Of a DNA stretch of 34,504 nt, positions 5,183 through 30,616 are shown one piece after another; positions within the stretch are counted from its first letter, which is position 1; each line of letters starts with the position of its first letter. The notes beneath the pieces are model-generated. The model saw only the letters and a list, made by a program, of their open reading frames with translations. It was not told the DNA's origin and made no database searches. The DNA is from Bacteroidota bacterium (GTDB taxonomy: Bacteria > Bacteroidota > Ignavibacteria > SZUA-365). A program made the translations under genes and the position numbers. Location: positions 1 through 34,504 of the forward strand of contig QKAF01000064.1 of NCBI GenBank assembly GCA_003246455.1, read 5' to 3'.

Positions 5183-5236
5183 GACGCTAAACTACACAAA
5201 ACCGGGCATTGTCGGAACCGGGGGGAATATTCTCCG

Positions 5237-5266
5237 TTTCTCTACTCGACGTGTTTTCGTACTTTG
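5237..5266 (+). promoter_or_regulatory. Possible promoter of lptD
   Basis: TTTC at 5237-5240, 19 bases, then TACTTTG at 5260-5266, roughly resembling the Bacteroidota TTTG-N19-TAnnTTTG pattern. It lies about 60 bases before the chosen GTG start in the dgt-lptD divergent gap. The match is imperfect. Confidence 0.28.
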
Positions 5267-5325
5267 TAACATCCATTTCTCCCGGGAGCGATACCGCCTC
5301 CCCGCGCGAGGGGATTATCCATTAC

Positions 5326-8079: not shown

Positions 8080-8217
8080 TCCGTGTAATCTGTGGTTACT
8101 TTTTCGCTGCGCACCGTTGGAGCGCCGTAATGCATCCCACTTTTTGCGTTGCCGGGAGTACCGGACTTTCGTATTTTTTTATAATTGACTGATTTCGCAT
8201 ACGAATACGATAGCATT

Positions 8218-10236
8218 ATGAAAAAACTCTCCGTACTGATTCCCGCCCTGTTTCTCCTCACGTTGATGCTGACCTCCGGCCTTCTGGCGCAGGAGGCCGC
8301 GAAATGGAGCGCGAAACCCGCTGCGGCCACAGTGAAAGCCGGCTCCACCGTAGACGTGAAGGTCACCGCCGCCGTCATCGACGGCTGGCATATTTATTCG
8401 ACGACCCCGCAGGAAGAGGGTCCCGTGCCGACCGAGATCGAATTCGCGGAGGACGCGCCGTTCTCACGCAGCGGAAAAATCAGGCAGCCGAAGCCCATCG
8501 TCAAGTTCGACGAGAATTTCGGCATCAATACGGAGTACTACGACAAGGACGTCACCTTTACCGTCACGGCGAAAGTCAAGGCCGGTGCGAAGGTCGGGAA
8601 GCAGAAAGTCGTGGTCGAGGTCTCGTTCATGGCGTGCAACGACCGCATGTGTCTGCCTCCCAAGACGGTGGAAGTGCCCTTCGACGTCACCATCGAAGCC
8701 GCGGATGAAACTGCCGCCGCGGCAGCGGATGATGCTGCGGGGACCGACCAGGAGACCGCAGCGGCCGCGGACGAAACCCCTGCCGGGGAAGAGATGGCTG
8801 CCGCGGATGATGCGGCGTCGGATGCGACTGCGGACGAGGAGTCCGAATCCCTCGGATACGGCGACGAACGTGATGTGGAAAAAGCCAAGGAGGAAGGACT
8901 CTGGGCGTACATCGGTCTCGCAATGTCCGTCGGCGCCCTCGCACTGCTGACGCCGTGCGTATTCCCGATGATTCCCATTACCGTCAGTTTCTTCACGAAA
9001 CGGGAAGCCGCGACGCGTTTTCAGTCCGTTCGTGACGCCCTTATCTATTCGTTCGGCATCATCTTCACGTTTACGGGTCTGGGGATATTACTGGCGCTCA
9101 TATTCGGGGCGTCAGGGATAAATCAGTTCGCGGCGAACCCGTGGATGAACATTCTGATCGCCCTCATTTTCATCATTTTTGCCCTGAACCTGTTCGGTTT
9201 GTTCGAAATCGTCGTCCCGTCGGGGATTCTCACCAAACTCACCATCGCTTCGGGCAGCGGGCAGGGCATCGCGAGCCTTCTGCTCATGGGTCTCACGTTC
9301 ACCCTGACAAGCTTCACCTGCACCGTGCCGTTCGTCGGAACCGTTATGGTCGCCGCGGCGAAAGGCGAGATCTGGTGGTCGATCGTGGGCATGCTGGCCT
9401 TTTCGTCGGTTTTCGCCCTCCCGTTTTTCCTGCTTGCACTCTTCCCGTCGTGGCTGAAATCCATGCCGAAAAGCGGCGGATGGCTGAACTCTGTGAAGGT
9501 CGTGATGGGTTTCCTCGAGTTCGCCGCGGCAATGAAGTTCATGTCCAACGTCGACCTGATCTGGGGGCTCGGAATCCTGAGCCGCGACCTCTTCCTGAGC
9601 TTCTGGGTTGGAATCGGCGTGCTAATCACCACCTATCTGCTCGGCAAGTTTCAGCTTCCGCATGACAGCAAGCTCGAGAAAGTCGGGGTTTTCCGCATGG
9701 TGTGGTCGGTATTCTTCCTCGGGATCTCCATTTACATTTTCACGGGGCTGAACGACAAACCGCTCGGGGAACTCGACGCGTTCCTGCCGCCGATGAATTA
9801 TTCCGAAACCATCAATGCAGCCTCCCTCGGCGATACCGGTATCATGGGCGGTGAGAAATCCGAGGAAGCGGTATGGCACTCGGACTACGCGCAGGCGCTG
9901 AAAATCGCCCAGGCGGAATCGAAACCCATTTTCATTGATTTTACCGGGTTCGCCTGCACCAACTGCCGGTGGATGGAAGCGAATATATTTCCGAGGAAGG
10001 ACGTTCAGTCCCTGTTCAGCGATTTCGTGCTCGTGCGTCTCTATACCGACGGACAGGGGGAAGTGTACGACCGGAACCGCGAATTTCAGGAGTCGCGCTT
10101 CGGGACCGTCGCTCTGCCGCTCTATGTGACCATGTCGCCCGAGGACGTGAAGCTCTCGACCTTCCCGGGTCTCACCCGCAAACCGGAAGAGTTCGTTCGT
10201 TTCCTCAAGGACGGTCTGAACAAGCCCGGCGCCTGA
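8218..10236 (+). CDS. dsbD: Thiol:disulfide interchange protein DsbD
   Basis: The protein has 672 residues when started at ATG 8218, which begins the signal peptide MKKLSVLIPALFLLTLML. It carries electrons from cytoplasmic thioredoxin to periplasmic substrates. Three modules are visible. The N-terminal periplasmic domain has Cys140 and Cys145 in MACNDRMCLPP. The multi-helix membrane domain has Cys247 (LLTPCVFPMIP) and Cys368 (TSFTCTVPFVG). The C-terminal thioredoxin-like domain has the Cys580-Cys583 pair (GFACTNCRWME). All six redox cysteines of the family are therefore present. An unusual Ala/Asp/Glu-rich low-complexity linker spans about residues 161-225 between the first domain and the membrane part. 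A strong hairpin at 10265-10291 closes the unit. No clear ribosome binding site precedes the start. Confidence 0.95.
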   Translation: MKKLSVLIPALFLLTLMLTSGLLAQEAAKWSAKPAAATVKAGSTVDVKVTAAVIDGWHIYSTTPQEEGPVPTEIEFAEDAPFSRSGKIRQPKPIVKFDENFGINTEYYDKDVTFTVTAKVKAGAKVGKQKVVVEVSFMACNDRMCLPPKTVEVPFDVTIEAADETAAAAADDAAGTDQETAAAADETPAGEEMAAADDAASDATADEESESLGYGDERDVEKAKEEGLWAYIGLAMSVGALALLTPCVFPMIPITVSFFTKREAATRFQSVRDALIYSFGIIFTFTGLGILLALIFGASGINQFAANPWMNILIALIFIIFALNLFGLFEIVVPSGILTKLTIASGSGQGIASLLLMGLTFTLTSFTCTVPFVGTVMVAAAKGEIWWSIVGMLAFSSVFALPFFLLALFPSWLKSMPKSGGWLNSVKVVMGFLEFAAAMKFMSNVDLIWGLGILSRDLFLSFWVGIGVLITTYLLGKFQLPHDSKLEKVGVFRMVWSVFFLGISIYIFTGLNDKPLGELDAFLPPMNYSETINAASLGDTGIMGGEKSEEAVWHSDYAQALKIAQAESKPIFIDFTGFACTNCRWMEANIFPRKDVQSLFSDFVLVRLYTDGQGEVYDRNREFQESRFGTVALPLYVTMSPEDVKLSTFPGLTRKPEEFVRFLKDGLNKPGA

Positions 10237-10264
10237 GAGCGTCGCACAGCGTTTGAATGGTGAA

Positions 10265-10291
10265 AAGGGAGCTGCCACGCGCAGCTCCCTT
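10265..10291 (+). terminator. Hairpin terminator after dsbD
   Basis: A perfect 11-bp stem (AAGGGAGCTGC at 10265-10275 paired with 10281-10291) with a 5-base loop lies 29 bases after the dsbD stop. The downstream arm ends in TT with no further T tract, so it may need Rho or act mainly as a 3'-end stabiliser. Confidence 0.6.
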
Positions 10292-10361
10292 CGCATTCAG
10301 GGGCTTCCCTCGCTATTCTCCCCGATCTTTCGTATTATTCTGGACCATGCCAAAATGGCCG

Positions 10362-10385
10362 TCCCGATTCTGAATCGGGAATTTT
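10362..10385 (+). promoter_or_regulatory. 19-base perfect palindrome followed by ATTTT in the fni leader
   Basis: TCCCGATTC at 10362-10370 and its exact complement GAATCGGGA at 10372-10380 flank one base, with ATTTT right after. The fni ATG at 10411 is 30 bases downstream. As RNA it folds into a 7-bp stem with a 5-base loop before a short U run, which is attenuator-like. As DNA it could be the operator of a dimeric regulator. The symmetry is seen; the function is inferred. Confidence 0.4.
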
Positions 10386-10410
10386 CGTGGCATTCAGGAA
10401 CCGCGAACCC

Positions 10411-11454
10411 ATGTCGAACACCCCATCCCGGAAGAAGGACCACGTCGATCTCTGCGTAAACGAGAACGTCTCGTTTCGCAGGAAGACCAATGGTCTCGAG
10501 GACTGGGAGTTCGTCCATAATGCGCTACCGGAACTGAACACCGAGGATATCGATTCCTCCACGGACTTCCTCGGTCACCGTCTCTCATTTCCGCTGCTGG
10601 TCACCGGCATGACCGGCGGCTATGCCGACGCCGAGCGCATCAACGGCGCGCTTGCAGAAGCCTGCCAGGATCTGCGTATCGGCATCGGGGCGGGGAGCAT
10701 GCGGCAGGCGCTGGAGAACGACTCTTTCCACGAATCCTATCGCATTCTCCGCCGCAACGGGCCTGATATCCCCATTCTCGCCAACATCGGGGCTGTCGAG
10801 GTCGCGGCCATGCGCGATGCGCGTCCCGCGCAGTATCTGATCGATCTTCTTGAAGCGGACGCACTGGTCGTCCACAGCAATCCGTTGCAGGAATTCCTGC
10901 AGCCGGAAGGTGAGCCCCGTTTCCGCGGTGTCCTCACGGGCCTCGAAATGCTCGTCCGTGAGCTCGATGTTCCCGTCATTCTCAAGGAAGTCGGCGCGGG
11001 CATCTCCCGAGAAGCCGCGATGCGGGCCCATGAGGTGGGCGTACGGTGGATCGACGTCGCGGGAGCGGGGGGAACGAGCTGGGCCGGCGTGGAAATCCTT
11101 CGCCGCCGCGACGGATGCGAAGTCTCCCCGCAGTTCTGGGATTGGGGGATCCCGACCGCGCGCGCACTGGAGGAGCTGCGCATCAACCGTCCGGAAGATC
11201 TCCGGCTGATTGCCTCCGGCGGGATCACCGACGGGGTGATGATCGCAAAGTGCCTCGGATTGGGCGCGGAAATCGCCGGCGCGGCGCGCCCGCTGCTCAC
11301 GGCCTATTTCCAGGGCGGGATCGACAGCCTTCACAATCGTCTCTGCGGATGGAAGCGGGATCTGCTCGGCGTCATGTTCCTGACCGGGTCCGCGAATATC
11401 GCGCAGCTGAAACGTAAACCGATACTCAATGCGAGAGAGGAGCGCACGCGCTAG
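10411..11454 (+). CDS. fni: Type 2 isopentenyl-diphosphate delta-isomerase
   Basis: This FMN-dependent enzyme interconverts isopentenyl and dimethylallyl diphosphate. The 347-residue protein begins MSNTPSRKKDHVDLCVN at ATG 10411; a GTG at 10387 in the same frame would add 8 residues and is less likely. Family features: the KKDHVDLC opening, LLVTGMTGGY, IGIGAGSMRQAL, ILANIGAVE, the Gln/Glu-rich NPLQEFLQPEGEP loop, VILKEVGAGIS, DVAGAGGTSW and ASGGI(T)DG at the FMN phosphate site. Length matches the family (about 340-350). A prenyl diphosphate synthase follows 45 bases later, so precursor isomerisation and chain elongation are coupled genetically. IspH, the last enzyme of the MEP pathway, is also encoded in the window. 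A palindrome precedes the start. Confidence 0.93.
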   Translation: MSNTPSRKKDHVDLCVNENVSFRRKTNGLEDWEFVHNALPELNTEDIDSSTDFLGHRLSFPLLVTGMTGGYADAERINGALAEACQDLRIGIGAGSMRQALENDSFHESYRILRRNGPDIPILANIGAVEVAAMRDARPAQYLIDLLEADALVVHSNPLQEFLQPEGEPRFRGVLTGLEMLVRELDVPVILKEVGAGISREAAMRAHEVGVRWIDVAGAGGTSWAGVEILRRRDGCEVSPQFWDWGIPTARALEELRINRPEDLRLIASGGITDGVMIAKCLGLGAEIAGAARPLLTAYFQGGIDSLHNRLCGWKRDLLGVMFLTGSANIAQLKRKPILNAREERTR

Positions 11455-11499
11455 CGCTGCGGCCCCCGATCGGAAGTCTCAAACTCAACCGACTGATTC

Positions 11500-12480
11500 A
11501 TGCACCGATTCTACGACCGTTACGACACCTATCGCAGCCTCATCGACGCAAGACTCGCCACCGTGATCGACCGCGGCGAACCCGTGAGCATGTATGATCC
11601 TGCACGGTATGTCCTGAGCGGCGGCGGGAAACGCATCCGGCCCGTTCTCGTGATGCTTGCCTGCGAGGCGGTGGGCGGAGATCCGCGCGATGCGGTGGAA
11701 GCCGGCGTCGCGGTGGAAATCCTCCACAACTTCACCCTCGTGCATGACGACATCATGGACCGTGCCGACACGCGCCGCGGACGTGAAACCGTGCACCGGA
11801 AATGGGACGAAAACATCGCGATTCTCGTCGGTGACGAGCTGATGGGCATCGCCTACAAGACCCTCCTCAACACCGAAAAAGGGGACGTCCGCGCGCTGAC
11901 GCGGGTGTTCACCGATGGCGTCATCGAGGTCTGCGAGGGCCAGAGCTACGACAAGGAATTCGAGCTGCTGCCGACCGTGAGTGAAGAAGACTACATGATG
12001 ATGATCAGCAAGAAAACCGGGTGGCTGGTCGCGATATCCGCCGAACTGGGGGCGATCATCGGCGGAGCGGACGCCGGACGCCGGGCCGCGCTGAACGAAT
12101 ATGCCCGCTGCGTCGGACGCGCGTTCCAGGTGCAGGACGATCTGCTCGATGTCGTGGCGGATAAGGACGCCTTCGGGAAGCCGATCGGAGGAGATATCAT
12201 CGAAGGAAAGAAAACCTACCTGCTGGTCAAGGCGCTCAACCGTGCGACAGGCGACGACCTGGCGCTGCTGCAGGAGGTTGCGACCCGTGTCGCGCCGCAT
12301 GACGGACTCGTCGAGCGCGTGACCGAAATCTACCGGCGGTACGGCGTGCTCGACATCGCGCGGGAGAAGATCGAAGAGGATACGGAAGCCGCGATCCGCG
12401 CGCTCGACGCGCTCGAGGATACCGACGGCCGTCAGATGCTCATCTGGCTCGCACAGATGCTTCTCGAACGCAAACACTGA
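11500..12480 (+). CDS. Polyprenyl diphosphate synthase, probably short chain (C15-C20)
   Basis: This 326-residue all-helical prenyltransferase condenses IPP with allylic diphosphates. The first Asp-rich motif DDIMD (Asp83-Asp87, in HNFTLVHDDIMDRADTRRG) and the second, QDDLLD near residue 210, are intact, as is GGGKRIRP at 41-48. The residue five positions before the first Asp motif is Phe78; a bulky aromatic at this place limits chain length in related enzymes, whereas octaprenyl-type enzymes usually have Ala. A C20 or C15 product is therefore inferred, possibly for carotenoids or as a primer for quinones. Its stop is only 5 bases before ptsH, indicating one transcript. Chain length cannot be settled without an assay. 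Confidence 0.9.
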   Translation: MHRFYDRYDTYRSLIDARLATVIDRGEPVSMYDPARYVLSGGGKRIRPVLVMLACEAVGGDPRDAVEAGVAVEILHNFTLVHDDIMDRADTRRGRETVHRKWDENIAILVGDELMGIAYKTLLNTEKGDVRALTRVFTDGVIEVCEGQSYDKEFELLPTVSEEDYMMMISKKTGWLVAISAELGAIIGGADAGRRAALNEYARCVGRAFQVQDDLLDVVADKDAFGKPIGGDIIEGKKTYLLVKALNRATGDDLALLQEVATRVAPHDGLVERVTEIYRRYGVLDIAREKIEEDTEAAIRALDALEDTDGRQMLIWLAQMLLERKH

Positions 12481-12485
12481 GACAT

Positions 12486-12752
12486 ATGATCGAACGCACC
12501 GTTACAATAAAGAACCGATCCGGTCTGCATACGCGCCCCGCGGCGACGCTGGTGAAGACCGCCGCGCGCTTCGAATCGGAGTTCTACATCAAGAAAGACA
12601 GCTTCGAGATAAACGGCAAGAGCATCATCGGCGTGATGACGCTCGCCGCCGAACAGGGCTCGACCCTGCAGCTGAGTTTCTCCGGTGCGGATGAAACCGA
12701 GATGGCGGACGCGGTGACGCAGCTCTTCGATGAAGGTTTCGGCGAACTCTAA
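12486..12752 (+). CDS. ptsH: Phosphocarrier protein HPr
   Basis: This 88-residue HPr has the phosphorylated His15 in SGLHTRPAA, which receives phosphate from enzyme I. The regulatory Ser46 in INGKSIIGVMTLA is also present, the site used by HPr kinase/phosphorylase in many bacteria. Both positions match the canonical numbering exactly. The length is standard. It sits 5 bases after the prenyl synthase and just before enzyme I. No EIIA, EIIB or EIIC gene is in the window, so it may serve a regulatory relay or permeases elsewhere. Presence of Ser46 suggests, but does not show, that an HPr kinase exists in this genome. Confidence 0.95.
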   Translation: MIERTVTIKNRSGLHTRPAATLVKTAARFESEFYIKKDSFEINGKSIIGVMTLAAEQGSTLQLSFSGADETEMADAVTQLFDEGFGEL

Positions 12753-12780
12753 CAATTTTCCGGACAGCCAGGGATACCTC

Positions 12781-14607
12781 GTGGATAACGGGAAACAGGA
12801 ACGGATTTACAAAGGACTCCCCGCATCAGGCGGGATTGCCATCGGTCCCGCGTACGTATACGAGAGGGAAGAGGTCTATGTCGTCGAGCGCATCCTCTCG
12901 CCGGAAGAAGTGGAAGTGGAAATCCAGCTGCTCGACGATGCCATGGAGCGCGCCCGCGCCGAACTGGGAAAAATCGTCTCCTTCGCCCACGAAAAACTCA
13001 ACCAGGACGCCGCGGCGATTTTCGAAAGTCAGCTCCTGATGCTCGACGATCCGGAGATGCACAAAGCGCTCAACAAGCGCCTCCGGGACGAATGCAAGAA
13101 TGCGGATTTCCTGATTCATGACGAACTGGAGAAATTCCGGGTTCTGTTCGGGGAAGCGAAAGACGAACTGCTTCGCGACCGCATGGCGGACCTCGACGAA
13201 GTGGGGCAGCGCATCATGCGCAACCTTCAGAAAAAGCGCCTTCATTCGACCGTCGAGGGTGAACACGTCATCATCGCCGAGCAGCTCACGCCGTCGGACA
13301 CGCTGCTCTTCAGCAGGAACGACGTTCTCGCATACGCGACCGATGTCGGCGGCATCACCTCGCATGCGGCGATTTTGTCCCGCTCCCTGAAAATCCCGGC
13401 CGTCACGGCGCTGCACGGCGCTTCCCGCGAGATCGCGACCGGAGACCTGGTGATTCTCGACGGTCAGCACGGCCTGCTGATCGTCAATCCCACCGAGGAG
13501 CATCAGGCGGAGTACGCGCGAAAGATCGAACGCATCATCCGGCTCGAAACCGAACTCGCCGACCTTGTGGATCTTCCCTGCGAGACTTCGGACGGACACA
13601 AGGTCGAGCTGTCCGCGAACGCCGAATTCGTCAACGAGCTCGAATTCATCATCACGCAGGGTTCCAAGGGCATCGGGCTTTACCGCACCGAGCATCTCTA
13701 CATCGCCAAGGGGGAATTCCCCTCCGAGCAGGAACAGTACATCGAATACAGTGAAATCGCGCACTCGATGTACCCGCAGCCCGTTATTTTCCGCACCTTC
13801 GATATCGGCGGAGACAAGCTGCTCGAGCGCGGCATTTCAGAACTGAATCCGTTTCTCGGGTGGCGCGGCATTCGGATGATGCTGGACAAGACCGATATTT
13901 TCCGGCATCAGCTTCGCGCAATTCTCCGCGCTTCGTCGATGAAAAACATCAAGATCATGTTCCCCATGATTTCAGGAGTCGCGGAACTCCGTGAAGTGCT
14001 CGCGGTGCTCGAAGAAGTCAAGGCGGAACTGACGGAGGAACTGGTCCCCTTCGATGAGCACATGGAAGTCGGGCTGATGATCGAGGTTCCCTCCGCAGTG
14101 TTCGTCGCGGATGAACTCGCAAAGATGGTGGATTTTTTCAGCATCGGAACGAATGACCTTGTGCAGTACCTGATGGCCGTGGACCGGAACAACGAACTGA
14201 TCGCGGACCTGTACCAGGAATTCCACCCGGCCGTGATACGCGCGGTGAAGAGCATCATCGACACGGGGCACGCCAACGGCATCTGGGTCGGCATGTGCGG
14301 CGAACTCGCGGGCAACCCGCTGGCCACCGTCATGCTCCTTGGCCTCGGGCTGGATGAATTTTCCATGGTGCCGTCCGTCATCCCCGAAGTGAAGAAAATC
14401 ATCCGGTCCACGACGTTCGAGGACGCCAGAACCGTTGCCGCGAACGTGCTGCGCCTGCCGCTCGCAACTGACGTGCGCGCGTATCTCGACACGCACATGC
14501 GGGCCCACTACCCGCACCTCCGGGAAACCCTGCGGAACGGCGTGAACAGTGAAAACGGAACGCATCGAAATCACGAGGATAACGGAGATCAGCATGCGAC
14601 CCTCTGA
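12781..14607 (+). CDS. ptsI: PTS enzyme I (phosphoenolpyruvate-protein phosphotransferase)
   Basis: This enzyme takes phosphate from phosphoenolpyruvate and passes it to HPr. The GTG at 12781 gives 608 residues beginning VDNGKQERIYKGLPASGGIAIGPAYV, close to the usual family start. An in-frame ATG at 12730 would give 625 residues but overlaps ptsH by 23 bases with no ribosome site. Key parts: the N-terminal HPr-binding helical region, the phospho-histidine loop GGITSHAAILSRS (His195), the PEP-binding barrel with RTEHLYI and FRTFDIGGDK, and the C-terminal MCGELAGNP with its conserved Cys. No GAF domain is fused, so this is the sugar-type EI rather than PtsP. The 3' end overlaps pgi by 14 bases. 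Confidence 0.95.
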   Translation: MDNGKQERIYKGLPASGGIAIGPAYVYEREEVYVVERILSPEEVEVEIQLLDDAMERARAELGKIVSFAHEKLNQDAAAIFESQLLMLDDPEMHKALNKRLRDECKNADFLIHDELEKFRVLFGEAKDELLRDRMADLDEVGQRIMRNLQKKRLHSTVEGEHVIIAEQLTPSDTLLFSRNDVLAYATDVGGITSHAAILSRSLKIPAVTALHGASREIATGDLVILDGQHGLLIVNPTEEHQAEYARKIERIIRLETELADLVDLPCETSDGHKVELSANAEFVNELEFIITQGSKGIGLYRTEHLYIAKGEFPSEQEQYIEYSEIAHSMYPQPVIFRTFDIGGDKLLERGISELNPFLGWRGIRMMLDKTDIFRHQLRAILRASSMKNIKIMFPMISGVAELREVLAVLEEVKAELTEELVPFDEHMEVGLMIEVPSAVFVADELAKMVDFFSIGTNDLVQYLMAVDRNNELIADLYQEFHPAVIRAVKSIIDTGHANGIWVGMCGELAGNPLATVMLLGLGLDEFSMVPSVIPEVKKIIRSTTFEDARTVAANVLRLPLATDVRAYLDTHMRAHYPHLRETLRNGVNSENGTHRNHEDNGDQHATL

Positions 14608-17057: not shown

Positions 17058-17168
17058 CACCAAGTCACCAGGACGTAAAGACACAAGAATGTGTGGCCAA
17101 GACAGAAATTCATCCGGTCGCTCCCATGCAAAGCAATTGACGTGTCTTTGCGTCTTCGTGTTTTTGGG
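17058..17168. repeat. Long imperfect inverted repeat flanking a gene start
   Basis: The arm at 17058-17084 (containing GACGTAAAGACAC at 17072-17084) is nearly complementary to the arm at 17142-17168 (GTGTCTTTGCGTC at 17142-17154). There are 12 of 13 matches in the core and weaker pairing outward. About 57 bases lie between, including the ATG at 17089. The sequence resembles the AAAGACACAAAG-type dispersed intergenic repeats found in many environmental genomes (from memory, not searched). Confidence 0.6.
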
Positions 17169-19938
17169 TCTGACTGCCATGGCCCCGTCTGTCCTCCACG
17201 CCCAGTTCCTCCCCTTTGGGCGGAACAAGGTCCAGTATGCGAACTTCCACTGGCAGATCCTCAAGACCGAGCATTTCGACATATACTATTACCCCGAGAT
17301 GGAGGAACTGGCGGGGAAGGGCGCACATTTCGCCGAGGAGAGCTACGACAAGCTCGAGCGGGTGTTCAACTTCACCGTCGGTCACCGCATCCCGCTGATA
17401 TTCTATTCCTCTCCAATCCATTTTCAGCAGACGAACGTAACCCCGGGCTTCATCCCTGACGGCGTCGGGGGCTTTTTCGAGTTCATCAAGGGACGCGTCG
17501 TCATCCCCAGTTCCGGATCGATGGAGCAGTTCCGTCACGTGATCAATCACGAGCTCGTGCATGTCTTCATGCACAACAAGCTCGAATGGACGCTGCGCAA
17601 CAACGGACAGCGTACCGATCGCTACCTTCCGCTGTGGTTCGTCGAAGGGCTCGCGGAGTATTATTCCACGGACTGGGACGCCCAGGCGGAGATGGTGCTG
17701 CGAGATGCGGTCCTCTCCGGATACTTCGCGCCGCTCTCGTACATCTACGCGATCAGCGGGAGTTTCCTGATGTACAAGGAAGGGCAGGATGCGCTCGGCT
17801 TCATCGCGCGGGAATACGGGAAGGAGAAAATCGTTCAGCTCATCGATAATTTCTGGATGGCGGAAGATTTCCAGGAAGTTCTGCGGCTGACGCTCGGCGT
17901 CGGATATGAACAGTTCGACCGCGCGTGGCTCCGGGATCTGCGCCGCCGAATTTATCCGCTGGTCGAAACCGCCGACCGGCCGAGCGACGCCGCGTCGGCC
18001 ATCGTCCGGGAAGGATTCAACGCGAAGCCGGTGTATTATGCGCGCGGCGATTCGTCCTACGTGGTGTATATCGCCAACAACACCGGCTATTCCGGGCTCT
18101 ATATGAAATCGCTGGACGGGGGAGAGGCAAAGCTGCTGCTTGAGGGGGAAAAGACCGACCGCTTCGAAGCGTTTCATCTTTTCGGCAGCCGGATGTCGGT
18201 CAGCCGCGACGGCATGCTGGCTTTCGTCACGAAGAGCGGGGAGTCGGATGTGCTGCATCTTTACGATCTCGGTGCAGAGCATCTCGTGCGCACGCTGTCG
18301 TTTCCCGGCCTGGTCATGATCGGTTCTCCCTCGTGGAATCCCGGCGGGGACGCCATCGTCTTCTCCGCTCTGAATGAAGCAGGAGAACAGGATCTTTATA
18401 CCGTGGATATCGTGACGGAGGAGATGCGGCGGCTGACACACGACCTGTACGATGACCGTGACCCCGCCTGGTCGCCGGACGGAGACCGCATCGCGTTCGC
18501 GTCCGATCGCGGACCCGGGGGATTCCAGCAGATATTCCTCCTCGACCTGGAGCGGGGAGGCATGCATTTCCTGACGCAGGACAGCTGCAGCTACGCATCG
18601 CCCGCATGGTCGAGCGATGGCGCCGCCATCGCATGTACCGGCGACAGGGACGGCACGCAGAACCTGTATGTCATCCCCGTTTCCGAAGCCGCGTCGATGC
18701 TGCCCCCCGTGCGCCAGCTTTCTCATTTCACCACCGGCGTCTTCGATCCGGCGTGGACCCCGGACGGCGATGTCGTCTTCTCCGCGTATGACGGCGGAAG
18801 CTTCCAGATCCTCGGACTGCAGAAGATCGGGGCGAAAATCGATTCGCTGTCCGAAGTGTACGGACCGCGCCGCCCCCAGCCCGCGGCTCCATGGACGGTA
18901 CCCTCTCTTGCCGGCACCACGGTATCCTCGCGCATCAGCTATGAGAAGGAGTATCAGGTCGATATCGCGCAGAGCGCCATTTCCACCGACCCCGTCTTCG
19001 GTACGCTCGGAGGCGCGGTGCTGAGCATGAGTGATGTGCTCGGCGACGACCGCTATTATTTCCTGATATCGAACACCGCACAGACCTCGAGCGAACTGCT
19101 CTCGAGTTTCAATATCGCGGTATCGCGCCTTTCGCTTGCGCAGAAGACGCCCTACAGCTACGGGGTATTCCACTATGCCGGCCGCCGATACGACCTGCTG
19201 GACCCCGACCTGTATTTCTACGAGCGCGCGTATGGCGGATTCTTCGCGGCGGCGTACCCGCTTTCGAAGTTCCGGCGCATCGAGGGGGCGTTCAGTTTCA
19301 GCAATTCCGACAAGGAAGCGCTTGCCGGCGTCCGCCAGCGGAAAGCGCTGCTGCTGACCAATTCCATCTCCTACGTCAAGGACAACGCCCTGTATTACTG
19401 GACCGGTCCCATCGACGGCAACCGGTTCAACCTGACCCTTTCGTACACGACGGACCTCCGGTACGCGAACGTCAATTACTACTCGGCGATGTTCGATTAC
19501 CGGCGATACTTCCGCATCGGTCTGCGTTCCGCCGTCGCGACGCGCTTCGAATTCCTTTACAATCACGGGAAAGAAGCCCGGCGGTTCTTTCTCGGCGGCA
19601 GCTGGGACCTGCGCGGCTGGCCTCGCTGGTCCATTCGCGGGACGAAGCGCTGGATCACCAGCTGCGAACTGCGCTTCCCGGTTCTCGATCGCGTGGGATT
19701 CGATTTCCCGTTCGGTTCGATCACGCTCGGCGTTCTGCGCGGCGCGGTTTTCTTCGACGCGGGAAATTCCTGGGACAGCGACTACCGCGAAACCCTGGGC
19801 AGCATCGGTGCCGGACTCCGGTTCAGTCTCTTCGGAATCCTCGTGCTGCGCTATGATGTCGGGAAACGCATCGAGGACAATTTCACGCATCTCCAGGGCG
19901 ACATCTTCCAGCAGTTCTTTTTCGGATGGGACTTCTGA
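17089..19938 (+). CDS. HExxH metallopeptidase / PD40 beta-propeller / Omp85-like barrel fusion protein
   Basis: This 949-residue exported protein has an N-region containing Arg/Lys, a hydrophobic core (CLCVFVFLGLTAMAPSVL) and a cut after HAQ near residue 39. Residues about 50-290 form a peptidase-MA-like gluzincin domain with HELVH at 154-158 and WFVEGLAEYY carrying the third zinc ligand (Glu186). Residues about 320-620 contain TolB/PD40 propeller repeats such as DPAWSPDGDRIAFASDR. The C-terminal third is a beta-barrel with Omp85 signatures: LGGSWDLRGW (RG loop, about 835-844), ELRFPVLD, FFDAGNSW, GAGLRF and a terminal Phe. The start may be ATG 17089 or TTG 17137. A surface or periplasmic protease tethered to its own barrel is inferred. 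The next gene overlaps by 1 base. Confidence 0.85.
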   Translation: MCGQDRNSSGRSHAKQLTCLCVFVFLGLTAMAPSVLHAQFLPFGRNKVQYANFHWQILKTEHFDIYYYPEMEELAGKGAHFAEESYDKLERVFNFTVGHRIPLIFYSSPIHFQQTNVTPGFIPDGVGGFFEFIKGRVVIPSSGSMEQFRHVINHELVHVFMHNKLEWTLRNNGQRTDRYLPLWFVEGLAEYYSTDWDAQAEMVLRDAVLSGYFAPLSYIYAISGSFLMYKEGQDALGFIAREYGKEKIVQLIDNFWMAEDFQEVLRLTLGVGYEQFDRAWLRDLRRRIYPLVETADRPSDAASAIVREGFNAKPVYYARGDSSYVVYIANNTGYSGLYMKSLDGGEAKLLLEGEKTDRFEAFHLFGSRMSVSRDGMLAFVTKSGESDVLHLYDLGAEHLVRTLSFPGLVMIGSPSWNPGGDAIVFSALNEAGEQDLYTVDIVTEEMRRLTHDLYDDRDPAWSPDGDRIAFASDRGPGGFQQIFLLDLERGGMHFLTQDSCSYASPAWSSDGAAIACTGDRDGTQNLYVIPVSEAASMLPPVRQLSHFTTGVFDPAWTPDGDVVFSAYDGGSFQILGLQKIGAKIDSLSEVYGPRRPQPAAPWTVPSLAGTTVSSRISYEKEYQVDIAQSAISTDPVFGTLGGAVLSMSDVLGDDRYYFLISNTAQTSSELLSSFNIAVSRLSLAQKTPYSYGVFHYAGRRYDLLDPDLYFYERAYGGFFAAAYPLSKFRRIEGAFSFSNSDKEALAGVRQRKALLLTNSISYVKDNALYYWTGPIDGNRFNLTLSYTTDLRYANVNYYSAMFDYRRYFRIGLRSAVATRFEFLYNHGKEARRFFLGGSWDLRGWPRWSIRGTKRWITSCELRFPVLDRVGFDFPFGSITLGVLRGAVFFDAGNSWDSDYRETLGSIGAGLRFSLFGILVLRYDVGKRIEDNFTHLQGDIFQQFFFGWDF

Positions 19939-21087: not shown

Positions 21088-21675
21088 ATGGCAGTGAACT
21101 GGAAATACGGGCTGATCGCCGCGCTGCTCATCCTGTCGATGCCCGCAGCAGGGCAGGACAGGGAACCCCCGATGACAGGGCTTGTGGAACTCGCCTCGGA
21201 ACCCGCGGGGGCGGAGGTTTTTGCAGGGGATTCACTGATCGGACACACCCCCATGCGCGTCCAACGTGCGATTCTCGACAGTGTGACGCTCTGGTTCCCC
21301 GCACGCGACGCGTGGAACGCGCAGGTCCTCCGTCCTTCCGCGGAAGGACCCGATGCGGGAACCGGGGTGCGGATGCTGCGTTTCGACGCGCAAAAGCTGT
21401 TTCTGGGCGTTCCGGCCGGCAAGGCGCGGATCGAGGACAACAGTTTTCAGCTTCCCGCTGCGGATGTGCTCTTGCCGGCAGGTCTCGGACTTGCCGCGGG
21501 CGTTGCCGCGGTGATACTCAAGCAGCGCGCCGACGCGCTTTATGACGATTACGTGCGGACGGGAGACGAATCCCTGTTATCTCAAACGAAAAAGTACGAT
21601 ATTTACGCAGGTGTATCACTTGCATTGCTGCAGTTCGGACTAGGGTACTTCATTTATCGTCTTTTTGATGAATGA
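21088..21675 (+). CDS. PEGA-domain membrane protein of unknown function
   Basis: The protein has 195 residues starting 1 base after the preceding stop. A signal peptide (residues 1-22, ending AAGQ) is followed by a PEGA-type beta-sandwich, visible as VELASEPAGAEVFAGDSLIGHTP (about residues 31-53). Two hydrophobic segments follow: VLLPAGLGLAAGVAAVIL near 128-145 and YAGVSLALLQFGLGYFIY near 172-189. PEGA domains are found in surface-layer and envelope proteins and often bind glycans or proteins; no reaction is known. The position at the end of the protease-barrel/BamB-like module suggests a structural accessory role. The exact function is not recognisable. Confidence 0.75.
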   Translation: MAVNWKYGLIAALLILSMPAAGQDREPPMTGLVELASEPAGAEVFAGDSLIGHTPMRVQRAILDSVTLWFPARDAWNAQVLRPSAEGPDAGTGVRMLRFDAQKLFLGVPAGKARIEDNSFQLPAADVLLPAGLGLAAGVAAVILKQRADALYDDYVRTGDESLLSQTKKYDIYAGVSLALLQFGLGYFIYRLFDE

Positions 21676-23059: not shown

Positions 23060-25321
23060 ATGAAGCGCGTTGTCCTGCTGCTTCTCCTCATCACTTCCGC
23101 CGGGACGGCGCAGGTGGGGACATGGCATACGTACACTGACATGAAACTCGTCCGCGACCTCGTCACGGGCACGGACGATTACTGGGCCGCCACCAGCGGG
23201 GGCGTATTTCACGCCCGCGCCGACGGTACCTTCGAAAGATTCACGAATGTTGACGGGCTTTCGGTCATCGACTATACCGCGATCGCGCTGGACGACAACG
23301 GTGCGGTGATCGCCGGTTCCTCGAGCGGGATGATCAACGTGCGCACGCCGGCGGGAGAATGGTACGAGGTTTCGGATATCACCCGTGCAGAGGAAATTCC
23401 CGCCCGTGGCATCACGACGATCAGGGTGCATGAGGGCAAGGCGTATATCGGAACGGAGTTCGGCCTCGCCGTCTACGATCTGCAGCGGAAGGAATTCGGG
23501 GATACATATCAGAAATTCGGGAGCCTGCCGCTTCGCAGTCCGGTGAACGCCCTGCGCTTCGACGGTACCAAGCTCTGGGTCGCCACAGGCGCAGGCGTCG
23601 CCGTCGCGGATCTGACCAATCAGAACCTGAAGGATCCTGCCTCGTGGACCTCCTGGAGCGCCGAAAACAGCGGGCAGAAATTCGGCAGCGTGCGCGACGT
23701 CTTCATCTATGACGGGCATCCGCTCGCGGTCATTGAAAACAACAGCATCACGCGGTACAACGGGAGCGACTGGTACCCCTGGGTCGCACCGCCTACCGGG
23801 ACGATTCTGAAGATAGCCGGGCATGACGGCGTGCTCTACATGATCACGGACCTGGGTCTCTACAGGGTGGAGCCCACAAGCGCGGTCGAGCAGCTCGGCG
23901 ACCTGCTGAACCTCACAGTGTACCCCCAGGGCACGCGATTCATGGACATCGAAATATCAGGCGACGGCACCATCGCACTGGGGAGCACTTTCGGCTTTAC
24001 CACGTACGCGCCGCCATCGCCGTGGATATTCCGCAAACCGGATGGTCCCAATTCGAATCTCTTCAATGCCCTTGCCGTCGACAGCGACGGGACGCTCTGG
24101 GCGGCATCCGGTATCACGGCCAATGGAAACGGAGCATACGCCTTTGACGGCAGCGTGTGGACCAATCACACGGTCGCGCTCGATCCGGGAATCCACACCG
24201 ACGCGATCACCGATGTTGCGTCGGAAGGGAACGGAAGAATGTGGTTCACGACCTGGGGCAATGGCGTCTTTCTGAGGAATCCCGACGGGACCACCGAGTA
24301 TTTCGACGGCACGAATGTCCCCGGATTTCCGGGCATCGTCTCCAATACCGAATTCTCCGCAGTACGGTCGTTGCAGTTCGACAACCGTGGCAACCTCTGG
24401 ACGCTGCACAATGAGTCCAACACCGCCATGCTCGGCTGCCGCACGCCGGAAGGGCAATGGTACTTTTTCAGTGATCCGTCACTTTCGACCGGACTCTTCA
24501 CCATGGATTTCGCGGTCGATCAATTCGACCAAATCTGGACCCTCGTAGACAACAGCGCGTTCCGTGGAATTCTGATTTTCAACGCAAACAGAACTCCCGC
24601 ACAGACCGGCGATGACAGATGGATGCGCCTGACGGCGCAAGACGCGAATACGATCGACGCAGGCGTAAATGTAACCGCGCTTGCCGTCGATCTCCTTGGC
24701 GACGTCTGGATCGGCACCGACAGGGGTCTGCGTACGATTTTCAATCCCGCGCAGCCCGACCGCGTTTCAAAAACCTGCTTCAACACGCGCTGCAATATCG
24801 AGGGACAGTACATCACGAGCATCGCGGTGGATCCGGTCAACAACAAATGGCTCGGGACGAAAGAGGGCGTGTTCGTGCTGAGCGCCGACGGCAGTGATAT
24901 TCTCGCGCATTACGACACCGACAACAGTCCGCTGCTCGATGACGAAATCGAAACGATCCTGGTTCACCCCGGCAACGGCATCGCGTACATTGCGACACGG
25001 CGCGGACTGTCGAGTCTTTCCACGGCGTACGTGGAACCCGAAACGAGCTTTACGGATCTGAAGGTCGGTCCGAATCCCTTCCGTCCCGGGAAAGACGAGC
25101 GCGTGATCATCGACGGCCTCGTCGAAGCTTCCGTCGTCAAGATCCTGTCGGTCTCCGGTGACCTCGTCGCCGAGATTCCCACGCCGGGCGGACGAATCGG
25201 TTTCTGGAACGGGCGCACGAGCAAAGGCGACTACGCGCCGTCGGGCGTCTATTTCATCGTGGCGGCCGCGCCGAATGGTTCGCAGTCCGCTGTCGCCAAA
25301 GTGGCGGTCGTACGGGAGTAA
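23060..25321 (+). CDS. Secreted beta-propeller protein with T9SS-type C-terminal domain (PorZ-like)
   Basis: The protein has 753 residues with a signal peptide MKRVVLLLLLITSAGTAQ. Residues 19-640 are rich in two-component-regulator-type propeller blades, for example WAATSGGVFHARADGTFERF, DVWIGTDRGLRTIF and KWLGTKEGVFVLSADGS. The last 86 residues (from KVGPNPFRPGKDERV) form a FlgD/Por-type sorting domain with the typical PNPF opening and GVYFIV ending. This layout matches PorZ, a cell-surface component of the type IX secretion system, but could equally be an ordinary T9SS cargo. GAAGGAAGAG precedes the ATG. Transcription ends at the shared terminator at 25341-25376. Confidence 0.82.
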   Translation: MKRVVLLLLLITSAGTAQVGTWHTYTDMKLVRDLVTGTDDYWAATSGGVFHARADGTFERFTNVDGLSVIDYTAIALDDNGAVIAGSSSGMINVRTPAGEWYEVSDITRAEEIPARGITTIRVHEGKAYIGTEFGLAVYDLQRKEFGDTYQKFGSLPLRSPVNALRFDGTKLWVATGAGVAVADLTNQNLKDPASWTSWSAENSGQKFGSVRDVFIYDGHPLAVIENNSITRYNGSDWYPWVAPPTGTILKIAGHDGVLYMITDLGLYRVEPTSAVEQLGDLLNLTVYPQGTRFMDIEISGDGTIALGSTFGFTTYAPPSPWIFRKPDGPNSNLFNALAVDSDGTLWAASGITANGNGAYAFDGSVWTNHTVALDPGIHTDAITDVASEGNGRMWFTTWGNGVFLRNPDGTTEYFDGTNVPGFPGIVSNTEFSAVRSLQFDNRGNLWTLHNESNTAMLGCRTPEGQWYFFSDPSLSTGLFTMDFAVDQFDQIWTLVDNSAFRGILIFNANRTPAQTGDDRWMRLTAQDANTIDAGVNVTALAVDLLGDVWIGTDRGLRTIFNPAQPDRVSKTCFNTRCNIEGQYITSIAVDPVNNKWLGTKEGVFVLSADGSDILAHYDTDNSPLLDDEIETILVHPGNGIAYIATRRGLSSLSTAYVEPETSFTDLKVGPNPFRPGKDERVIIDGLVEASVVKILSVSGDLVAEIPTPGGRIGFWNGRTSKGDYAPSGVYFIVAAAPNGSQSAVAKVAVVRE

Positions 25322-25396: not shown

Positions 25397-28300
25397 TCAC
25401 CGAATTCGGATCATTCTCCCGGAGCGGCTGTCAGGGGTTGACAGCTGCAGCCAGTAGAACCCCGCTTCCAGCGCCTCGAGTCCGAGCGTTCGCACCGCCG
25501 TGCTGCCTTCCGCCTCGGTGAGCGGTACGTCCATGCGTATCCTTCCGAGCATATCGAAGAGCGTCAGCTGGTATGCCGTCCGCGGTGTCAGGGAGAGCGT
25601 AACGGTCAGGATATCCCCGGCCGGCTGCGGCCAGGCACCGGTAATGGCCGCGCGGAGAGGGACGGCAATGTCCGCGTCGACGGCCGTGCCGATATCGACG
25701 GTACGGAACATCCACGGCGTATTCCAGTCGCTGGTGCCGCGCGCCGTCGTGACGTTAAGACGCCAGTAGTAGGTCCAGTAGCTCCAGAGCCGCGTGAGCT
25801 GTATCGTCGTGCCGGCGATACCCGCGCTGTCGAACACCACTGATGCAAAGCCCCGGTCCGTCGCCACCTGCAGTCGATAACTGCGCGCTCCCAGTACGGG
25901 GTACCAGTTGAGCAGGGCGTTCAGCGGAACATCGGGCAGACCGTCGAACGGCGTCAGCTGCCTCGGCGGCGCGGGCGCCGTACTGAATTTCCAGCCGCGC
26001 GACCAGTCGCTCAGCGCAGTGGAGGCCGTATTCCCTGCACGAAGGCGCCACCAGTAATCGGTATCGTACGAAAGCCCTGTCAGGGACGCGGTGAGACCGG
26101 TAAGCCCGGCCTGCTCGTCGATGAGCGTCTGGAACTGTTCGTCGACTGCGACCTGCAGCTGATAGGCATCCGCGTCCGGAACCGCGTTCCACCGCAGGTT
26201 CATTGAGACCGGCAGTCCGATGGCGCCGTTGAGCGGCATGAACTGGACGGGTGTCATCAGGGTGCTTCCGCTGGTGGTGAATTCCCAGAGGGTGCTCCAC
26301 TCACTTACCGTTCCGCTTCTGAAGGCTTTGACGCGCCAGAAATAACGGGTGCTCTGTGCGAGTTCCGGTACCGCATAGCTGGTGGCCGTCAGGCCGCTTT
26401 CGTTGATGACCCAGGTGTTCAGCGTCGGATCGTTCGTCAGCTGCAGCTGATAGGTCAGCGCGCCGTGGAAAGGAATCCAGCGGAGGATCGGCCGCGTCGA
26501 TTCGCCATCGGCGCCATCGAGCGGCGCGTACAGTGTCGGACGCGTTTCCGACTCGCTGATGCGGAACGGCGCCGGGGAGATGACCATGCGCGTCGAGTCG
26601 TGCGTGTCGGTCAGTCGTACGCGGCAATATTCCGAGGGCTCTGTCGGAACCGTCCATGAATACGTACCGCTTGCGGCAGGAATGTTCACCGCCGCCGCGA
26701 TCCATGTCTGCCCGTTGTCCAGCGAATAGTCGATGTCCACGCTCGCGATTTCCGCACTCGCCCAGCGAATATCCTGCCGTGTGGCGATTTCCCAGCTCTC
26801 CCCGCCGATTGGGGCGACGAGCTGAAGGAAGGGTTCAGGAGTTATCGCGAACACGCTGTCGCTTTCGTCGGTGAGTTGCGGCCGGTCGCTCGCGGTCACG
26901 CGGAGCATGCAGCGGTCGGACACGCGGTCGGGGATGGTCCAGAGCCACTGGCCCCACCGCGCTGCCTCGCTCGCCAGCAGTTCCCAGGTCGCGCCTGCGT
27001 CGTCCGAAAGCTCGATCCGCACGCTGTCGATTTCCGCGCTCTGCCAGCGTACAGCGTGGGTGCTGGCGATGCGCCAGCGTTCGCCGCCGTTTGGCGAAAT
27101 GAGCGAGACCGAGGGGATTGCGGTGATGCGGAAGCGTGCGTCGCTGCGGTCGAACACGGAGGCGTCGTCGGAGGAGACGATGCGGATCAGGCTGGAATCG
27201 GAAGGAGTGACGGGAAGCCTCCAGGAATACCCGCCCTGGCGCGCGTTGACGGCACTGGCGATCGGGTTCCATGACCGGCCGTTGTCCGTCGAATATCCGA
27301 GGTTCACGCGGTCGACGGCGATGGATGTCCAGAGAATGTCATGCGTCGATGCAACCTGCCATTCCTCTCCGCCATTCGGTTTCGTTATGCTGACAACAGG
27401 CCGCAGATACACCGTGAAATTTGCGGGTGACGCATCGAATATGCTTCCGGCGGCATCGCGCACACGGATACGGCACGCGGTCGAGGTGATCCCCGGCGCG
27501 GTCCACATGCAGGCGCCATCCATTGCGGGGAGGGGACCGGCGATTTCCGTCCATGAGGCGCCGCCGTCGGCGCTGAAATCGATCGCGACGAACTGCGCGG
27601 CGACTCCCTGCCACCGGATCGGATGCGCGGTGCCGCTTTCCCATTCCTCTCCGCCGGCGGGAGAAAGCAGTTCGAGCGAAGGAATGAGCGCGAGATTTTT
27701 CGCCGCAGTGCGCCGGATGGTGCAGCCGCCTGCGGTTGCGAAGTAGAATCCTTCGATGCGGTAATCGCCTGCGCGTCCCAGCTGAAGGGCACCGGTGAAG
27801 ATCCCGTCGTTCGCCGTCCCGTCCGCACCGAGGCCGTCGTCATTGACGGTGATCGGCGTGCGGTTGCCCGTGCTGTCGATAATCACACAGCTCGCGGATG
27901 TCTGCGTCGCGGCAGGCCCGGCGTTGTCGAGCGCAAGCGCGACGGTGATCTGCTGACGGCTTAGCGGTTCGGTAGGCGTGAGCGTGAGCTGCAGTTCCTT
28001 CGACGCGCGGCTGATGTATGCGAGGCGGCAGGTCGAGGGAAGGGATGGTGCGTTGTCGACGAGCAGCCGCCAGTCCCCCGGGGCGGGATGCTTCACGGTG
28101 ATGAACTTGACATGCTGCCCCGCATTGTGCGTGAAGTAGATGGTGGAGTCGTTTGCTTCCGCCGGTCCGACCGGAACGCCCCCCGGGGCCGACAGCGCGA
28201 ATAGCGGTTCGGAAGCACCGCCGTAATCGAGCAGCACGGTGAGTTCCTCGGTGAGGCAGTCCACGGTGAAATCGACGAAGGCGCCCGGATCGGGAAGCAC

Positions 28301-30616
28301 GCCGCGCAGCGTGCGTTCCGGATCGAGAAGCATCGCTTCATGTTCGGAGATGAGCAGCGTGTTCCGCTTTTCACGCGACCACGCCATGCGCAGATCCCCG
28401 ATGCCCTGGCAGACGTCGAACGACCGGTCCAGGTCGTCGGTACGCGAAAGGATCGGGTCGGGAACGATGCTCTGCTGCTGCACGGCGAGCTGCCATCCGA
28501 GACCGGAGTGGAGCAGCGGCGTGCCGCGGAAGGGATTGAGTCCTCCCGCATGCGCGACGCCGAAGAAGCGCGCATCCTGCCAGGTCAGCTGCCGGACCAC
28601 CGGGTCATCAGAAAAACACATCGAGGACGGGTAGAAAAAGAGCCCCGGATCATTGACATCCGTGAAAGTCTCCACGGCTTCGATCCGCAGGCGGTTCCCC
28701 GCCGAAAGATCGAGCCGAAGCCGCGCGCGGTCCGACACGGGGAACGGAGCGCCGTCCGCCGTGATGCGCAGGGTCGGGACACCGACGTCGACGCGGAGCG
28801 GCGGTGCGCCGGCGACCGCGTATTCCTGCTGCGGAAACTGCAGCGTGTCCGGCGGATTGTAGATCAGGAATCGCGAGCGATACGCCGCGAGCGTGGTATC
28901 GCTGACGGTGAACGCATACACGATATCCGGGACGAGGTCCGCATCAGGCGCGTCGAACTGTCCGGTGTCGCCGTCGTCGGGCGACTGCAGCATCGCGGAC
29001 GCGTATCCGCCCAGCACGGCGTTGATTGTACGGGGCGCGGGATAGGTCGAGGAACTCAGCGCCGTCATCCCGTCGTCATGCAGCGTCGATTCCACATCCT
29101 GCGCCGGCGAGGAGAAAGCCGCCGATCCCGAGATGTTCAGCACGGCGATCCCGGAAGGGAGGAGGTTCGGATCGAGCCGCGCGAGCGCATCGCGTCCCGG
29201 CATCAGCTCGCGCAGGACCGGTGCGTGACGATCCGGAATATCGGGCATCGGGAGCGCATCCGGTCCGGCGAACGCCAGGCCGGCTCGCAGCCGTCCGGCA
29301 TGCGGCGTTCCGAGAAAGATTGCCTTGAAGACGTCGCCGCGGTACGGGATTGCGCTCGCAGCGCTGCCGAAGTAGGTGAAGTTCCGTGCGGTTCCTTCGA
29401 GATACGAACGCACGACCAGACCGCCCACGCCGTCGGCGGCCACCGCCGCCCGGGTGGTGTCGTAGTTGTCGAGAAGCCAGCGCAGATCGCGGGCGAAAAG
29501 ATATCCCGACTCTTCCCAGTTCTGATCCGGGGGATAATAGTACTCCCAGACATCGAAGCGATCCGCGTGTGCATGATCGCGGCGTTGGAGCCGAGCGCCG
29601 TAGGAGGTGAAAACGTAATCGTGTTTCCCGTTGAATCCGGGCTGGAGGGTGTCCGCCGCGGTGACGATATCTTCATCGGTGCCCCACGCATCGCGCATGA
29701 GGTTCATCTCCGGAAGCAGCAGCAGCGGGATGCGGTCGTGGCGGATGTTCGCCATGCGGAACTGCGCATAGCCTGCGGCACCGCTGTCATGCGACGCGGG
29801 TGGGAGGAGCAGGGACGTCTGATAGACCGGTCCGTCCGCCGCGTCGCCTCCTGCCGCCAGCGCGCTCAGCGAGGATCCCGGCAGCCACGGGAATCTCACC
29901 CGGGTCGGGAAAATCCAGCCGGACTGGTCGAGCAGCTCACGCGGATGCTGCTGGTAGGAGGTCAGGTCGCGGTGCAGGAAGACCACGGCGTCGCGCCTGC
30001 GATGCGCCGCAAGGTCCTTGTAGGGGTAGGAAAAGCCAGCCTTCCCGATGACCCGGAAATTCTCGTCCAGCACCAGCAGATCGGTCATGTTCTGCGAGAG
30101 CACGGGAAGGAATTTCGACCAGTAGAACGCAGCGCATCCGCTGCTGTCGAGCGGCATCCGTATCGATACGGGCAGCTGGGGAGCGGGAATGCCGCTGCCG
30201 GCATACCCCCACAGCTCGATATACTTCGCCAGGGGAGCGGAGTATTCGACCAGACGGATGAAGCATGCGATGTTGTCTTCCTCCACGGGCGCCACGTCGA
30301 TGAAATCCGCATAGACCGCGGTGTCGCTGCTTGCGCTGTCGCTCACCACGAGCGTGATAGTGTAGCGTCCGGGGATTTCATATGTCCAGCGCGGATTTTT
30401 CTCATGCGTGTCCACGACGCCGTCGCCGTCCAGATCCCATGACCAGCGGATGATCGAATCCGCCGGGACGCTCTGGTCCAGAAACTGCAGCGAGAGCGGC
30501 GCGGCGCCGGAAGTCACGTCCGCGGTAAATGCGGCATGCGGCTGCGCGTACAGCGAACCCGCGAGGCAGAGGAGTATCGGAAGTATCATTACGGGGGAGA
30601 AGCGTGTTCTGTACAT
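25397..30616 (-). CDS. Giant secreted mosaic protein: PKD, degenerate lipase-like domain, Ig-like and FnIII repeats, T9SS tail
   Basis: The protein has 1739 residues with a signal peptide (MYRTRFSPVMILPILLCLAG, cut after YAQ). Order: PKD domain 26-108; an alpha/beta-hydrolase, PGAP1/lipase-like domain about 290-540 with FLGTPHAG (434-441) and a DDGMTALSSS block (514-523) like the catalytic Asp loop; a beta-rich region 560-975; four Ig-like repeats opening with PNGGExW (981-1070, 1073-1165, 1168-1260, 1263-1355); three FnIII-like repeats (1358-1449, 1453-1548, 1551-1640); and a C-terminal sorting domain (about 1655-1739). The nucleophile elbow reads ADGVGGLVV with Gly396 where Ser is expected, so lipase activity is probably lost. 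Inferred to be a T9SS-exported surface adhesin or binding protein. Confidence 0.85.
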   Translation of the reverse strand: MYRTRFSPVMILPILLCLAGSLYAQPHAAFTADVTSGAAPLSLQFLDQSVPADSIIRWSWDLDGDGVVDTHEKNPRWTYEIPGRYTITLVVSDSASSDTAVYADFIDVAPVEEDNIACFIRLVEYSAPLAKYIELWGYAGSGIPAPQLPVSIRMPLDSSGCAAFYWSKFLPVLSQNMTDLLVLDENFRVIGKAGFSYPYKDLAAHRRRDAVVFLHRDLTSYQQHPRELLDQSGWIFPTRVRFPWLPGSSLSALAAGGDAADGPVYQTSLLLPPASHDSGAAGYAQFRMANIRHDRIPLLLLPEMNLMRDAWGTDEDIVTAADTLQPGFNGKHDYVFTSYGARLQRRDHAHADRFDVWEYYYPPDQNWEESGYLFARDLRWLLDNYDTTRAAVAADGVGGLVVRSYLEGTARNFTYFGSAASAIPYRGDVFKAIFLGTPHAGRLRAGLAFAGPDALPMPDIPDRHAPVLRELMPGRDALARLDPNLLPSGIAVLNISGSAAFSSPAQDVESTLHDDGMTALSSSTYPAPRTINAVLGGYASAMLQSPDDGDTGQFDAPDADLVPDIVYAFTVSDTTLAAYRSRFLIYNPPDTLQFPQQEYAVAGAPPLRVDVGVPTLRITADGAPFPVSDRARLRLDLSAGNRLRIEAVETFTDVNDPGLFFYPSSMCFSDDPVVRQLTWQDARFFGVAHAGGLNPFRGTPLLHSGLGWQLAVQQQSIVPDPILSRTDDLDRSFDVCQGIGDLRMAWSREKRNTLLISEHEAMLLDPERTLRGVLPDPGAFVDFTVDCLTEELTVLLDYGGASEPLFALSAPGGVPVGPAEANDSTIYFTHNAGQHVKFITVKHPAPGDWRLLVDNAPSLPSTCRLAYISRASKELQLTLTPTEPLSRQQITVALALDNAGPAATQTSASCVIIDSTGNRTPITVNDDGLGADGTANDGIFTGALQLGRAGDYRIEGFYFATAGGCTIRRTAAKNLALIPSLELLSPAGGEEWESGTAHPIRWQGVAAQFVAIDFSADGGASWTEIAGPLPAMDGACMWTAPGITSTACRIRVRDAAGSIFDASPANFTVYLRPVVSITKPNGGEEWQVASTHDILWTSIAVDRVNLGYSTDNGRSWNPIASAVNARQGGYSWRLPVTPSDSSLIRIVSSDDASVFDRSDARFRITAIPSVSLISPNGGERWRIASTHAVRWQSAEIDSVRIELSDDAGATWELLASEAARWGQWLWTIPDRVSDRCMLRVTASDRPQLTDESDSVFAITPEPFLQLVAPIGGESWEIATRQDIRWASAEIASVDIDYSLDNGQTWIAAAVNIPAASGTYSWTVPTEPSEYCRVRLTDTHDSTRMVISPAPFRISESETRPTLYAPLDGADGESTRPILRWIPFHGALTYQLQLTNDPTLNTWVINESGLTATSYAVPELAQSTRYFWRVKAFRSGTVSEWSTLWEFTTSGSTLMTPVQFMPLNGAIGLPVSMNLRWNAVPDADAYQLQVAVDEQFQTLIDEQAGLTGLTASLTGLSYDTDYWWRLRAGNTASTALSDWSRGWKFSTAPAPPRQLTPFDGLPDVPLNALLNWYPVLGARSYRLQVATDRGFASVVFDSAGIAGTTIQLTRLWSYWTYYWRLNVTTARGTSDWNTPWMFRTVDIGTAVDADIAVPLRAAITGAWPQPAGDILTVTLSLTPRTAYQLTLFDMLGRIRMDVPLTEAEGSTAVRTLGLEALEAGFYWLQLSTPDSRSGRMIRIR

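Follow-up and report, generated by a model that had tools for sequence, protein, structure and literature searches.

A maintained lipase-like domain without its nucleophilic serine in a giant multidomain protein with predicted type IX secretion

A giant gene of an Ignavibacteria genome encodes a lipase-like domain with a glycine at the position of the nucleophilic serine. On balance, the evidence favours the reading that this domain is a maintained pseudo-lipase, carried by a protein for which type IX secretion is predicted, and that it would most likely act in binding, its ligand being a lipid, an acyl chain or a polymer at the surface or outside the cell. The stretch of DNA analysed (contig QKAF01000064.1, 34,504 nucleotides, hereafter the window) carries the gene as a single frame on the minus strand, and its product is arranged as follows.

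25397 to 30616, minus strand: whole gene, a single ORF open throughout, for a 1739-aa secreted-type multidomain protein
30542 to 30616, minus strand: N-terminal signal peptide-like segment, residues 1-25, MYRTRFSPVMILPILLCLAGSLYAQ (from sequence)
30314 to 30547, minus strand: PKD domain, residues 24-101 (Pfam PF18911, E 5e-9, above cut-off)
29747 to 30280, minus strand: conserved N-terminal domain of the module, residues 113-290 (alignments)
28868 to 29761, minus strand: lipase-like alpha/beta-hydrolase domain, residues 286-583 (profile match and AlphaFold2 model)
27662 to 28861, minus strand: post-lipase beta-rich part including choice-of-anchor X, residues 586-985 (NF041940 and predicted beta structure)
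25697 to 27661, minus strand: Ig-like and FnIII-like repeats, residues 986-1640 (domain search)
25427 to 25633, minus strand: type IX secretion sorting tail, residues 1662-1730 (TIGR04183)

The first-pass annotation had placed the lipase-like domain among PKD, Ig-like and FnIII repeats. This description of the flanking domains stands: the PKD and Ig-like matches were above the Pfam cut-off and the fn3 match below it. The N-terminal domain, the lipase domain and the beta-rich part together form a module of about 870 residues (770-900). Within it, the N-terminal domain (residues 113-290) gave no match in a Pfam search, and its first ~100 residues were predicted to be mostly beta strands. NF041940 matched the post-lipase part at residues 922-955 (E 1e-8, above cut-off), for which the top Foldseek match was a DUF4785 protein with a low TM-score. 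A 700-aa frame also runs antisense over the lipase-like region (28340-30442 of the window, plus strand); the frames of the relatives that match it are shorter and broken up, so that it is probably a side effect of codon usage in the sense gene.

The assignment of the domain to the lipases is supported more strongly by the structure model than by sequence. Searches of Pfam and of PDB sequences that used only the window domain or the ten orthologues gave no lipase match. A profile of the module family built without generic lipases matched the lipase BlEst2 at E 4e-6, and the profile to which generic lipases had been added matched many lipases, a result that is partly circular. When the domain was modelled alone with a deeper alignment, AlphaFold2 produced a model with a pLDDT of 74 and a pTM of 0.80, with low confidence across most of residues 21-62. 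This model superimposed on BlEst2 (6wpy_A) with a Z of 20.5 and 3.5 A over 224 residues and on PlaB (6zti) with a Z of 22.9, the range over solved lipases being about 17 to 23, and it shows the arrangement strand-elbow-helix at Gly396. An earlier model of 866 residues had a pLDDT <50 in its lipase part, and a Foldseek search with it returned chiefly Ig-like matches of low TM-score. The structure prediction that had been proposed as a check thus returned a lipase fold, with a Z of about 20 to solved lipases, and the domain is predicted to adopt a lipase-type alpha/beta-hydrolase fold.

The positions of the domain that correspond to the catalytic machinery and to the conserved loops of lipases are listed below.

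29708 to 29713, minus strand: Pro302-Glu303 at the site of the oxyanion His-Gly (alignment column)
29483 to 29557, minus strand: FDVWEYYYPPDQNWEESGYLFARDL loop, residues 354-378, with the strongest conservation in the domain (mean entropy 0.27)
29420 to 29437, minus strand: degenerate elbow ADGVGG, residues 394-399 (translation, alignment)
29429 to 29431, minus strand: Gly396 (GGC) at the position of the nucleophilic Ser
29294 to 29314, minus strand: LGTPHAG lipase motif (translation, alignment)
29072 to 29074, minus strand: Asp515 of HDDG, the Asp retained at the catalytic position
28997 to 28999, minus strand: Ser540, the aligned position of the catalytic His

The elbow had been reported from the letters alone as ADGVGG, with Gly396 encoded by GGC at 29431-29429 (minus strand), and we confirmed it there; LGTPHAG (29314-29294) and DDGMTALSSS (29077-29048, minus strand), reported as hallmarks, were likewise located where they had been described. 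To look for a serine at the elbow, as had been suggested, we aligned the orthologues present in 10 of the 12 genomes of the window's family (the window counted among the ten). The nucleophile column was Gly in all ten and the Ser of GxSxG was absent. The glycine codons were GGC (four), GGG (three), GGT (two) and GGA (one), and since all four are in use and the third base has turned over, the glycine itself appears to have been kept by selection. As a control, the same searches returned generic lipase-like loci, counted only where the elbow column was readable, and nearly all of them carried Ser, with the exception of L044. The protein encoded there (G239, 2-2959) is likewise large and secreted-looking but does not belong to the module family; its elbow is of the Gly type (VVAHGLGGL), HD replaces the oxyanion HG, and a His-bearing IAHSDL segment lies downstream.

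A sequencing or assembly error at one base of a normal lipase would give the same reading in a single genome, and the remark that GGC lies one base from AGC fits, given that G224 and G126, the relatives with an intact triad whose codon was read, use AGC. Ten separate genomes agree on glycine, however, with four different codons, and the catalytic His is missing as well. The orthologues thus refute a base error at 29431, which we regard as next to impossible. Two alternative nucleophiles were also rejected: Asp395 is found in the window alone, the other sequences having H or Q, and the serines of DDGMTALSSS lie away from the elbow.

The remaining catalytic positions were retained to different degrees. 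Asp515 was invariant in the ten orthologues, as was the nearby His513. The column of the catalytic His read S/S/S/A/Y/A/S/S/A/A and was never His, while it was His in the three intact relatives G224, G112 and G126 (HTHL, KHTEL); this position was set by alignment and is less certain than the elbow. The earlier observation that no catalytic His follows the Asp loop therefore holds, since the loop contains no conserved His either. At the oxyanion site, the four genomes of the window's genus carried Pro-Glu, Pro-Glu, Ala-Asp and Pro-Glu, and outside this genus His-Gly was retained in five of six orthologues, with His-Asp in G010. As the oxyanion His is kept outside the genus and the catalytic Ser and His are absent in all ten, Ser and His were lost first and the oxyanion motif later.

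The invariance of Asp515 and His513 leaves a theoretical chance of unusual chemistry, in which the elbow glycine would make space for a ligand or for water and catalysis would fall to the retained Asp (in other lineages also to the His), so that the domain would still be an enzyme. Gly-elbow relatives that retain both His and Asp (G485 and the g12 genomes) speak in the same direction. The established lipase mechanism of serine hydrolases requires the catalytic His and the oxyanion motif; the former is gone in the window's family and the latter also in its genus, and we consider this explanation improbable. Hydrolysis is presumably absent from the domain.

If activity was lost, the gene could also be decaying under relaxed selection, and the loss of the oxyanion motif after that of Ser and His is what decay would give. 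Against this, the frame is open at full length in nine genomes including the window (1712-1778 aa in the eight relatives, a further orthologue being split into two fragments). Moreover, the dN/dS of the lipase domain was 0.10-0.17 in the pairs measured, towards the low end for the domains of this protein, although dS was near saturation and these values are rough. The lipase domain is kept under purifying selection, and the open frames together with the dN/dS make decay very unlikely.

Since the domain is maintained, the main rival to a binding role is that of a structural spacer, in which the dead domain would bind no ligand and would be kept only for its stable fold, as one block of a long stalk on the surface. 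Its place in a fixed module of ~870 residues between the PKD domain and the Ig/FnIII-like repeats is compatible with such a role, as are the similar constraint over all domains and the freedom of the catalytic loops to vary: within the domain, variability peaks in the oxyanion loop (entropy 1.45) and is also seen in the His loop (1.01). In contrast, the FDVWEYYYPPDQ..EES loop is nearly fixed (mean entropy 0.27 as compared with a domain mean of 0.91), and conservation at this loop and at the elbow far exceeds that elsewhere in the domain, seemingly beyond what a spacer needs. The loop is probably located beside the pocket, although it could have been retained for folding rather than for binding. 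Weighing these observations, we regard a spacer as unlikely, though it deserves more weight than an altered chemistry.

The genomic surroundings and the C-terminus of the protein bear on its secretion. The gene lies beside porZ, and the site without it was found in two genomes.

23060 to 25321, plus strand: porZ, a type IX secretion component (NF052228, 354 bits, cut-off 260)
L131 (G004), 2979 to 5993: empty site, porZ and cmk adjacent
L132 (G006), 3298 to 6488: empty site, porZ and cmk adjacent

In the window and the six relatives compared, porZ and cmk flank the gene, in the order PHP - ribH - porZ - gene - cmk - ispH - rpsA. G004 and G006, which belong to other genera of the family, lack the gene and have porZ directly beside cmk, indicating that one gene was gained or cleanly lost. 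The neighbourhoods compared outside the family had nothing but the gene itself in common with the window. The giant gene and porZ converge in the window and five of the relatives compared; in L106 (G007, 5046-12803) it lies on the strand of porZ. The sorting tail of the window protein scored 20.1 bits with TIGR04183 (cut-off 23), and the model was above cut-off in the orthologues L101 (30.3 bits) and L102 (25.5 bits) and in G224. From the sorting tails of the orthologues and the presence of porZ, we infer that the protein is probably a type IX substrate; the neighbouring porZ is suggestive of this system without proving a link. Two further genes of the window are on the plus strand. One (17089-19938) encodes a 949-aa protein in which a weak peptidase-MA-like part is combined with PD40 propeller repeats of the TolB-like kind and a C-terminus resembling Omp85, and the other (21088-21675) a 195-aa protein without a match in Pfam or NCBIfam, for which similar open frames occur in those family loci that extend to this position.

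The module was not restricted to the window's family, and was also found in large secreted-looking proteins of other families of the class and of one genome of another class. Ser, His and Asp were all intact in three of these relatives (G224, G112 and G126), whose N-terminal, lipase and post-lipase domains align with those of the window over ~770-900 residues and whose lipase domains, judged by these residues, are probably active; G224 is 31-32% identical to the window in the lipase domain. Other members had a Gly elbow, either without the His (G106) or with His and Asp retained (G020, G610 and G671, and also G485), and G689 had Asn at the nucleophile position. A tree was built with the elbow residue masked; it has long branches, that of G485 above all. 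Beside the intact G224, the window's family formed one clade (100/100); the f8 members grouped in a separate one. A single clade of all Gly forms was rejected (AU p about 1e-77), while one clade of the Gly forms within f8 was compatible with the tree test (p 0.12). If Ser was ancestral and never regained, at least three separate changes to Gly (in the window's family, in f8 and in G485) and one to Asn are required, a count that, owing to the long branches, depends on this assumption and on the model. The nucleophile of alpha/beta-hydrolases occupies a strained turn at which Gly is well tolerated, and this may be why the losses were mostly to Gly.

Taken together, the absence of Ser and His in all orthologues, the purifying selection, the predicted fold and the relatives with intact triads support the original proposal of a lipase-derived pseudoenzyme on a secreted multidomain protein. 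According to this reading, a lipase-fold domain has lost the Ser and His of its triad and retained its predicted fold together with the Asp, one highly conserved loop and the GTPHAG motif; the oxyanion motif was lost afterwards, in the window's genus, and the dead domain would be displayed by a multidomain protein predicted to leave the cell by type IX secretion. With the family I bacterial lipases and their relatives (BlEst2 6wpy, the Burkholderia lipase and the Proteus lipase) the domain shares the predicted fold, the order of motifs, GTPHxG and the Asp in the (N/D)DG loop, but it differs from them in lacking the Ser nucleophile, the catalytic His and, at the level of the genus, the oxyanion HG, and in being set in a giant multidomain protein. 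The signal-like N-terminus, the PKD/Ig/FnIII-like repeats and the C-terminal sorting tail, which in the window protein scores just under the cut-off, resemble those of type IX substrates that carry a type A sorting domain. Hydrolases exported by this system would typically be expected to be active, whereas the lipase-like part of the window protein is predicted to be inactive.

Non-catalytic domains of the esterase fold are best known from animals, where they act in adhesion. In neuroligins, the esterase-like domain is devoid of the catalytic residues and takes part in adhesion by binding a partner (PMC2570956). In these and other non-catalytic cholinesterase-like proteins of animals, an alpha/beta-hydrolase domain is likewise without the residues for esterase activity, and by analogy with them binding may be the function that the window domain has retained. 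Neuroligins differ in hydrolase subfamily, in domain of life and in being membrane-anchored, and the parallel would be one of working rather than of descent, implying no common pseudoenzyme ancestor. No description of such a bacterial family turned up in the literature searched, which does not prove its absence, and nothing usable was found on the fly yolk proteins, considered as another parallel derived from a lipase.

The recurrent loss of the nucleophile is the new element of the finding, amounting to at least four separate losses in the module family if Ser was ancestral. We tentatively propose, as a possibility that we hold with some doubt, that the module turned from a lipase into a binding domain several times independently through the elbow nucleophile, mostly by a change to Gly, giving a convergent class of surface-displayed ligand binders in large secreted proteins of the Bacteroidetes/Ignavibacteria type. 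Annotation of such proteins as secreted lipases would be incorrect. With its intact and inactivated members, a single secreted bacterial module would offer a natural series from enzyme pocket to binding site.
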